Shown piece after piece: positions 7,983 through 32,210 of a DNA stretch of 40,074 bases (position 1 is its first letter; each line of letters starts with the position of its first letter). The position numbers were made by a program, and so were the translations under genes. Location of the stretch: positions 1 to 40,074 of the forward strand of contig JAHEEI010000005.1 in the NCBI GenBank assembly GCA_024640785.1, written 5' to 3'. The notes beneath the pieces were generated by a model. It was not told the DNA's origin, made no database searches, and saw only the letters and a program-made list of their open reading frames with translations. The DNA comes from Pseudomonadota bacterium. Lineage in GTDB: Bacteria > Desulfobacterota > WTBG01 > CAIYCZ01 > CAIRTM01.

Positions 7983-8019
7983 TCCCTTACTAATAATAAA
8001 ATTTATGAAAGGACCGCTT

Positions 8020-8877
8020 ATGAAAAACCTAATGTTTCGGAAAACCGCTCTGTTCTTTGCGGTTTTTGCCCTACTCTGTTTTGCAGGCAATGTCTCTGCA
8101 AATGCCGAGTGGGAAACCTTAAAGAGCATCTCACTGCAAGACACGCCAAAAGACATTGCCGTATCAAATGACGGAACAACAGCATATATTCTGTGCACAA
8201 AAAGTATTCAGGTCGTATCCACCCTGTCCGGCAAGACTACCAGCTCTGTTCCTGTTAATGAAAATTTTACAAAAATTGCACTTTCTGCTGACGGCGAAAC
8301 GGTTTACCTTACCGACAGTAAAAATAAACAACTAACCGTCATGGAGTTCTCACAGGTTTATGACATTGAAATCGGAAACTCAGCGGTTATTGGAAAAAAA
8401 GACGCAAAAGTCAATTTGGTGGCATTTCTGGATTACCAATGACCTTACTGTGCCAGGATTTTTCCTGTACTTGAGCAGTTGCTCAAGAAATACCCAAATG
8501 ATGCTAACCTCGTAATAAAACAATATCCTTTAAGAATGCATAAAGCTGCCAAAATCGCTTCCATCGCATCTCTTGCCGCAGACAAACAAAATAAGTGTCT
8601 GGAACTGTCACAACTAATGTTTAAAGACTACAAAAACCTCGATGACGCTCTAATCAGATCTCTTGCTGAAAAAGCCGGCCTTGACATGGCTGCTTTTGAC
8701 AAAGATATTAAAGATCCGGCCCTAAGCAAAATTATAGATGCTGAGATGATGCTGGGGACGAAAGTGGGTGTACGCGGTGTGCCGGCAATATTTGTAAATG
8801 GAAAACCCGCAAAAAAAGCACGTTCTCTAGAGGGACTTTCAAGCATGATCGATGCCGCACTTAAGTCCTCTAAGTAA
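8020..8877 (+). CDS. Secreted DsbA-like thiol oxidoreductase with in-frame TGA read as selenocysteine
   Basis: The frame runs from the ATG at 8020 (AAAGGA upstream; an ATG at 8005 overlaps that site) to TAA at 8877, interrupted only by TGA at 8440-8442. Read through, it gives 285 residues with the active site U141-P-Y-C144 in the context FLDYQ-U-PYCARIFP, where DsbA relatives have CPYC. The domains in order are a signal peptide (about 1-29, ending SANA), a segment of about 80 residues with two beta-propeller-like blades (DIAVSNDGTTAYI and KIALSADGETVYL), then a thioredoxin-fold DsbA domain with helical insert and cis-Pro255 (GVRGVPAIFV). Coding continues with no loss of similarity after the TGA, and it falls exactly on the redox residue, so selenocysteine is far more likely than a nonsense mutation. 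The probable role is periplasmic thiol-disulfide exchange. An ordinary annotation would report two fragments (8005-8442 and 8479-8877). Confidence 0.85.
8440..8487 (+). promoter_or_regulatory. Candidate bacterial SECIS element (UGA plus downstream hairpin)
   Basis: After the TGA (8440-8442), a perfect inverted repeat CTTGAGCA/TGCTCAAG spans 8470-8487 with only GT between the arms. Folded as RNA it gives a seven-pair stem with the tetraloop AGUU. The loop G is the second loop base and lies 36 nucleotides after the UGA. From memory of the bacterial SECIS model (apical loop about 16-37 nucleotides after the UGA, with a G among the first loop bases) this fits, at the long end of the range. It should recruit SelB with Sec-tRNA. 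No folding program was run. Confidence 0.6.
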
Positions 8878-8902: not shown

Positions 8903-8933
8903 AAAAAAGGGTGCGCTTTCAGCACCCTTTTTT
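8903..8933 (+). terminator. Rho-independent terminator after the selenoprotein gene
   Basis: AAAAAAGGGTGC and GCACCCTTTTTT form a perfect 12-pair stem around the loop GCTTTCA, ending in six T residues. It separates the selenoprotein gene from the arsenic operon. Because the left arm begins with six A residues it could also work for transcription from the other side. Confidence 0.9.
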
Positions 8934-9392: not shown

Positions 9393-9408
9393 AATATAGG
9401 AGAATAAA

Positions 9409-10537
9409 ATTAAAACTGACGCCATAAAAAACGACAGAAAAATGGCCGGCATCTTTGAGCGGTACCTCACACTCTGGGTGGGACTCTGTATCGCGGGAGG
9501 AATCGTGCTTGGCAGAATTGCCCCCCGGCGTGGCACATAAGCTGGACAGCATGGCTTTTTTTGTAAATAGGATGCCCATAGTTTCCATTCCCATAGCCAT
9601 ACGCCTTTTTTTCATGATGTATCCGATTATGGTCAAAATTGATTTTGCCAGTGTTGTAAAGACCCGAAAAAGTAGCAAACCGGTTCTCCTGACCCTTTTT
9701 CTCAGCTGGTGTATCAAGCCGTTTTCTATGTACGGCATTGCAATTATTTTTCTGGGATTTCTCTTTCGAGAACTTATCGGTGCAGAAGCAATGGATATTG
9801 TAAAAATGCCGTTTGGACTGGACCTGCCCATGGGGGCAACCCATGGCGCAGGCACGGTGATACTCCAGATAGGTATAAAAGCACTACAACTTCCCCTCTG
9901 GCGCAGCTATTTTGCCGGATGCATTCTGCTCGGCATTGCACCTTGTACAGCCATGTTTTTGGTTTGGGGTTATCTGGCCCGGGGTAATGACGGTCTCACC
10001 CTAGTCATAGTGGCCATCAATTTGTTTACCATGCTGCTGCTTTACGGCATTCTGAGCGGATTTTTGCTCGGCGTCGGCAGCCTGCCAGTTCGGCAGGCCT
10101 TATTGCTTTCTGTTGCCATATATGTTGCCCTACCCTTGGCAGTAGGTTATATTTCCCTCAAACTAATCATCGCTGCAAAGGGAGAAACATGGTTTAAAGA
10201 GGAATTTCTTCATTTACTCATCCCCATTACGATCATTTCCCTACTGACAACACTGGTACTTCTGTTTAGCTTCAAGGGTGACGTTATCCTGGCAAATCTT
10301 CCGACCATCCTCTGGATCGCAGTTCTCCTCTTTATCAAGACTATACTGATCTTCGGACTGGGGTACTGGCTTGCCAAACTGTTTAACCTGACCTATGAAG
10401 ATTCAGCACCAACGGCCTTGATCGGTGCATCAAACCATTTTGAGGGTGCTATCGCAACATCCGTCATGCTTGTCGGATTTTGCAAACACACCCGCAACTC
10501 CTTTCGACACAGCACAGCTGAAGACCTAAATCATTAA
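9409..10537 (+). pseudogene. acr3: Arsenite efflux permease Acr3/ArsB, frameshifted and internally deleted
   Basis: The protein is clearly an Acr3-family (BART superfamily) arsenite exporter: [17 protein letters not shown] at the N-terminus, [30 protein letters not shown] with the functional cysteine, and LIGASNHFE near the end. Three defects are visible. (1) The well-placed TAGGAG site leads to ATT at 9409 rather than ATG; the first ATG in that frame is 9442. (2) The N-terminal frame stops at 9538-9540, and the rest continues in the +1 frame. The shift is at a run of six C residues (about 9520-9525), where five would give the expected [12 protein letters not shown]. (3) Near the C-terminus [14 protein letters not shown] runs straight into [11 protein letters not shown], lacking the 25 or so residues of the last helix. 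It is most likely inactive; a sequencing error could explain only the C run. Confidence 0.8.
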
Positions 10538-31965: not shown

Positions 31966-31994
31966 TTGACAAACAAATACTGCACATGTATATT
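31966..31994 (+). promoter_or_regulatory. Strong sigma-70-type promoter of the B12 operon
   Basis: A perfect TTGACA (31966-31971), a 17-base spacer and TATATT (31989-31994, five of six). Transcription would start near 32001, right at the riboswitch 5' edge. Confidence 0.75.
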
Positions 31995-31998
31995 AATA

Positions 31999-32210
31999 GA
32001 TGGTAGCTCAAAGAGCTTTAATAGGGAAAACGGTGAAAAACCGTTGCGGAACCGCCGCTGTAACTTCGCTTCCTTTAAAAAGGAAACCTTCTAATCACTT
32101 GTGCCACTGTCCTTCTGGGATGGGAAGGCGATTAAAAGGGCGGAGAAGCCAGAAGACCTGCCCGGCAACACTACATGGCGGGAACCCTCGTTTTTAGTGG
32201 TTTCCACAAA
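31999..32210 (+). promoter_or_regulatory. Cobalamin (B12) riboswitch
   Basis: The adenosylcobalamin-type aptamer is recognisable from its conserved segments in order: AATAGGGAA, the GGTGAAA...CCG arm, TTGCGGAACCGCCGCTGTAA, GTGCCACTGT, and the B12 box AGCCAGAAGACCTGCC at 32147-32162. An intrinsic terminator follows, so cobalamin binding probably switches off transcription of the uptake operon downstream. The ends of the aptamer are approximate. Confidence 0.93.

Follow-up and report, generated by a model that had tools for sequence, protein, structure and literature searches.

A probable DsbA-like selenoprotein gene encoding a two-bladed propeller fragment and carrying a probable double-hairpin recoding signal

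The window, the whole 40,074-nucleotide stretch of DNA analysed here (contig JAHEEI010000005.1 of assembly GCA_024640785.1, positions 1 to 40,074), contains a reading frame at 8020-8877 that starts with ATG at 8020, ends with TAA at 8875-8877 and is interrupted only by the TGA at 8440-8442. The features of the gene and its flanks, all on the plus strand, are as follows.

8008..8013, +, Shine-Dalgarno-like AAAGGA ahead of ATG 8020 (from the sequence)
8020..8877, +, probable selenoprotein gene, 285 codons counting the TGA as Sec; stop TAA
8020..8106, +, predicted Sec-type signal peptide, residues 1-29, ANA|EWE (sequence inspection; N-terminal helix in the model)
8107..8364, +, two-bladed YVTN beta-propeller fragment, approximately residues 30-115 (profile matches, model, structural matches)
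8377..8874, +, DsbA/Thioredoxin_4 catalytic domain, residues 120-285 (Pfam, model, structural matches)
8440..8442, +, TGA, putative selenocysteine 141, the first (N-terminal) residue of the UPYC motif
8449..8451, +, resolving Cys144 (TGT), invariant (alignment)
8454..8467, +, SECIS hairpin 1, CAGGA-TTTT-TCCTG, 11 nt past the TGA (folding and covariation)
8470..8487, +, SECIS hairpin 2, CTTGAGC-AGTT-GCTCAAG, loop 8477-8480, 34 nt past the TGA (folding and covariation)
8782..8784, +, codon of the cis-Pro, Pro255 in GVRGVP (alignment and DsbA background)
8909..8933, +, terminator-like hairpin and T run, 3' of the gene

With AAAGGA upstream of its ATG and the terminator-like hairpin downstream, the gene appears to form a transcription unit by itself. 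An earlier, sequence-only reading of this DNA had placed the TGA at the nucleophilic Cys that opens the active-site motif (DYQ-U-PYC) and reported protein similarity unbroken for 144 residues beyond it, and both the coordinates and the reading prove right: the Pfam matches to Thioredoxin_4 (E 2e-25) and DSBA (E 3e-21) span the TGA, and the 144 further residues include a GVP motif whose proline, residue 255, is the cis-Pro. The window protein has Val ahead of this proline, where many relatives have GTP. Past the TGA, changes fall at third codon positions 58 times versus 36 and 29 times at the other two, and the downstream codons are under purifying selection.

The catalytic domain belongs to the DsbA family (PF01323; 76.6 bits against a cut-off of 25.6), as it contains a CxxC-type site (UPYC), the cis-Pro Pro255 and the helical insertion, and its model (pLDDT 94) matches DsbA folds, the nearest solved ones being 3gyk, BdbD and ScsC. 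It is preceded by approximately 85 residues that match YVTN propellers. In the AlphaFold model, 86 residues of this piece form seven strands that make up two YVTN/WD-like blades and no further ones (pLDDT 91.8), and across 37 aligned sequences the fragment has a similar length. Structurally, it is best matched by Pizza2-SR (3wwb) and by portions of larger propellers, 1l0q for example. None of the NCBIfam models scores above its cut-off against the window protein. The best of them, NF041057, which describes the Rcas_1661 family thioredoxin-like (seleno)lipoprotein ('DsbG-like'), resembles it in having a thioredoxin-like domain with UxxC; it covers residues 120-279 only and reaches 45.1 bits against a cut-off of 190, and membership was rejected. 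With this as the best model, the expectation that standard annotation would mis-call the gene is plausible.

The active-site column alternates between selenocysteine and cysteine codons among relatives, as the sequence-only reading had anticipated. A full-length protein is present in nine of nine same-family genomes, with TGA at the column in three and Cys in six, one of the latter carrying two copies; the TGA genomes include two other genera of the family, at 50-53% protein identity. Across the phylum, relatives (counted at E below 1e-40) occur in 44 of 395 genomes, and 14 of these 44, the window's own and 13 others, have TGA at the same codon, with protein identities of 31-53%. The TGA is thus not a chance event, given its presence at this column in two other genera and in 14 of the 44 genomes. 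Where relatives lack the TGA and the codon was read, it is TGC or TGT with a single TCA exception; one relative with the Cys form belongs to Geothermobacter hydrogeniphilus (L078). In 30 aligned rows column 141 is always Sec or Cys and Cys144 is invariant. Close relatives that carried some other sense codon together with accumulating downstream damage had been named as grounds for abandoning the selenoprotein reading; the relatives instead have Cys or TGA, and their frame is intact past the column. The TCA (Ser) codon lies in genome G393 (L154), where it has a tandem TGA copy as its neighbour, approximately 955 bases away; the TCA copy is possibly a non-nucleophilic paralogue. A first scan of genome contigs with the single protein as query returned no relative, and a scan based on the alignment covered Cys codons at the column only, TGA forms being outside its reach. 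Searches of viral contigs yielded no relatives, and plasmid records yielded distant DsbA-domain matches only.

The 45 nt that follow the TGA in the window fold as two adjacent hairpins. The folding energy of this region lies below that of all 1000 recodings that preserve the amino acid sequence (z -3.4), and with synonymous recodings the mean folding z is -2.9 in ten TGA genes versus -0.25 in 21 Cys genes. Across the 14 TGA genes, the 12 base pairs are formed in 92.9% of cells and seven of the 12 show compensatory changes; none of 500 shuffles paired as well, control alignments in which the partner was slid by 1-3 columns were 33-46% paired, and RNAalifold, unprompted, gives the same 12 pairs. 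Both hairpins form in 11 of the 12 further TGA relatives and in no Cys relative among 101 (56 full-length and 45 domain-only); hairpin 1 is broken in two of the 14 TGA genes. Hairpin 2 has seven base pairs and a 4-nt loop whose second position is G and whose third is U or G, and alone it folds at -8.9 kcal/mol. The SECIS of E. coli fdhF is likewise a hairpin 3' of the UGA with a G-G/U loop motif; in contrast to that single hairpin, 11 nt after its UGA, the G-loop hairpin here is the second, placed behind a spacer hairpin. The published limits for bacterial SECIS elements are a distance of 16-37 nt to the UGA, a loop of 3-9 nt with G among its first two positions, 4-16 bp and an MFE of at most -7.5 (PMC13188914). 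Hairpin 2 agrees with all of these, its loop at 34 nt being near the far limit of 37, whereas the model has no counterpart of the conserved hairpin 1 in the spacer (PMC13188914).

A tree of 67 proteins shows the Sec form at scattered positions and requires at least 10 changes of state, which cannot by themselves tell gain from loss. That TGA genes have hairpins in common at the same place suggests an old Sec form that was lost many times. Fossil hairpins are in slight excess among the Cys relatives (mean z 0.33 and 0.29, standard error 0.13), an excess too weak to settle gain versus loss.

The window's own genome, a draft of 2.84 Mb in 305 contigs that is 92% complete, encodes the full selenocysteine machinery for which the sequence-only reading had proposed a search: SelA (600 bits), SelB (386 bits, cut-off 242), SelD (365 bits, with one in-frame TGA) and a tRNA-Sec, selC (78.8 bits, anticodon TCA). 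Its absence would have spoken against the reading, but its presence is a weak and non-discriminating test, because SelA is found in 355 of the 395 genomes of the phylum. The in-frame TGA of the SelD gene (L019, C234:2740-3657) is followed by a hairpin with the loop GTT, and two FdhA (formate dehydrogenase) genes of the same genome also have an in-frame TGA and a hairpin, with the loop GGTCT. One TGA-form genome, the draft G050 (L053, L155), has no SelA match, probably owing to a draft gap. Within the family, G008 (L027, L139) alone lacks a SelA match, and it carries the Cys form, as expected if use of Sec had been lost there. Read-through frames elsewhere in the window were gone through for further selenoprotein candidates, and none was convincing.

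Taken from sequence comparison, these results make it very probable that 8020-8877 is a functional selenoprotein gene in which the TGA is read as Sec. A nonsense mutation, or a misread TGC or TGT, in a pseudogene or faulty assembly would produce the same interruption, and the draft state of the genome and a nearby frame-disrupted acr3-like gene lend this some plausibility. It is nonetheless extremely improbable and already refuted by the recurrence of the TGA at one codon in 14 divergent genomes and by the SECIS, as the covarying structure stands right after the TGA in TGA genes and not in Cys genes; the purifying selection past the TGA also contradicts it. UGA is the leakiest stop codon, so inefficient read-through by a near-cognate tRNA (Trp or Cys) has to be considered along with a genome-wide reassignment of TGA, yet we regard both as very improbable. 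Approximately 10 of the window's 29 largest ORFs still have TGA as their apparent stop, so that no reassignment has taken place; exchange at the active-site column is with Cys and not Trp, the SECIS-like structure is under selection and the genome has a full set of sel genes. The selenoprotein reading of the earlier work is therefore upheld overall, but it had overlooked both the propeller fragment at the N-terminus and the SECIS with its two hairpins.

In the mechanism that we propose, the UGA at 8440-8442 would be decoded as selenocysteine by SelB and tRNA-Sec under the direction of the SECIS at 8454-8487; SelB probably binds hairpin 2, whose loop is AGUU or AGGU, and hairpin 1 would fold up the spacer. 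The product would be exported as a periplasmic thiol-disulfide oxidoreductase with a UPYC active site, in which Sec141 is predicted to attack and Cys144 to resolve. The two-bladed N-terminal pieces may assemble the subunits, most simply three of them into a six-bladed ring, and the enzyme may act as an isomerase or reductase like ScsC and not as the main oxidase, the direction of the redox reaction being inferred.

This last part of the proposal, a selenol-dependent disulfide isomerase or reductase that is oligomeric and periplasmic, is tentative, and we put its chances at a little under even. It draws on two analogies, which together point to the propeller piece as an oligomerisation module. 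The two-bladed Pizza protein trimerises into a six-bladed propeller (PMC7734218), and ScsC (from Proteus and Caulobacter), alpha-DsbA2 and BcfH trimerise by way of their N-terminal domains and have isomerase activity (PMC8900818). The propeller piece resembles Pizza2 (3wwb), whose whole chain is two blades, with a TM-score of 0.73 normalised by the Pizza2 chain; however, Pizza2 is artificial and stands alone, whereas here a natural fragment is fused to an enzyme and a trimer is suggested by analogy only. With ScsC, alpha-DsbA2 and BcfH the window protein shares an extra N-terminal domain before the DsbA head and a catalytic fold among the nearest solved ones (PMC8900818). In ScsC, that domain is alpha-helical and the site is CxxC, in contrast to the propeller piece and UPYC found here; the N-terminal domain is all-beta in the model, with no helical trimerisation stalk of the ScsC type. 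Elsewhere in its own genome are a DsbB adjoining another DsbA and a CcdA-type DsbD protein, so that oxidase and reductant pathways exist. VKOR, considered as a partner, is absent.

Alternatively, Sec could be incorporated into an ordinary monomeric reductase, or into a redox protein linked to peroxide, arsenic or metals, with the propeller merely binding a partner. This explanation is compatible with the selenoprotein reading and competes with the oligomeric isomerase only; it is a realistic contender, at about one chance in three. Propeller pieces can bind partners, and in the window the gene is followed directly by arsR-, acr3- and arsC-like genes. Against it, the terminator-like hairpin at 8909-8933 separates the gene from arsR, and the gene neighbourhood is not conserved among the relatives examined, where no adjoining partner gene recurs; operon context was accordingly set aside as a functional clue. 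A lone two-bladed fragment would moreover leave its blade edges open, and a close structural match over nearly the whole chain is to a fragment that trimerises. The acr3-like arsenite efflux gene (9393-10537, Pfam SBF), between the arsR-like and arsC-like genes, itself seems to be frame-disrupted at both ends, with its start in another frame and its end without the usual last helices, and is put down to a pseudogene or an assembly error.

DsbA-like selenoproteins are already known, and the window protein is a well-supported further one. A list of them appeared in 2006 (PMC1794560), a 2016 count gave 45 genes in 41 organisms (PMC5029168) and a 2026 table includes them (PMC13188914); the first two sources bear out the earlier statement that they occur in deltaproteobacteria. 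NIP15863.1, Anaeromyxobacter and Desulfovibrio desulfuricans are among the recorded examples. The window protein, from an anaerobic delta-type bacterium, shares with these proteins (PF01323, UxxC; 'DsbA-like protein form 1') the DsbA fold, a UxxC motif that opens with Sec and occurrence in deltaproteobacteria (PMC1794560, PMC5029168, PMC13188914). The passages available from these sources give no domain architecture, and its two-bladed N-terminal domain and double-hairpin SECIS go unmentioned there. A literature search of partial coverage found selenocysteine, DsbA and a beta-propeller together in no paper, and the propeller architecture and double-hairpin SECIS are possibly new. A more far-reaching and rather unlikely idea is that the protein represents a selenoprotein lineage so far unrecognised in Thermodesulfobacteriota, a trimeric disulfide isomerase in which three two-bladed fragments would close a six-bladed propeller bearing three UPYC heads; the SECIS would form a distinct bacterial class with tandem hairpins, and an ancestral Sec would have been replaced by Cys repeatedly (at least 10 switches), with both hairpins lost each time.

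The gene illustrates how annotation based on stop codons misses a catalytic selenocysteine in a protein-folding enzyme. The many Sec/Cys switches at one active-site position, with the recoding RNA gained or lost in step, provide a natural experiment on why selenium is retained or given up, and the covarying double hairpin can serve as a model to find further members and to test how SelB reads a loop placed far from the UGA. Elsewhere in the window, a Cobalamin riboswitch (31984-32179, 86.7 bits) is followed by genes that, judged by eye, appear to encode a substrate-binding protein, parts of an ABC transporter and ExbB/TonB-like proteins.
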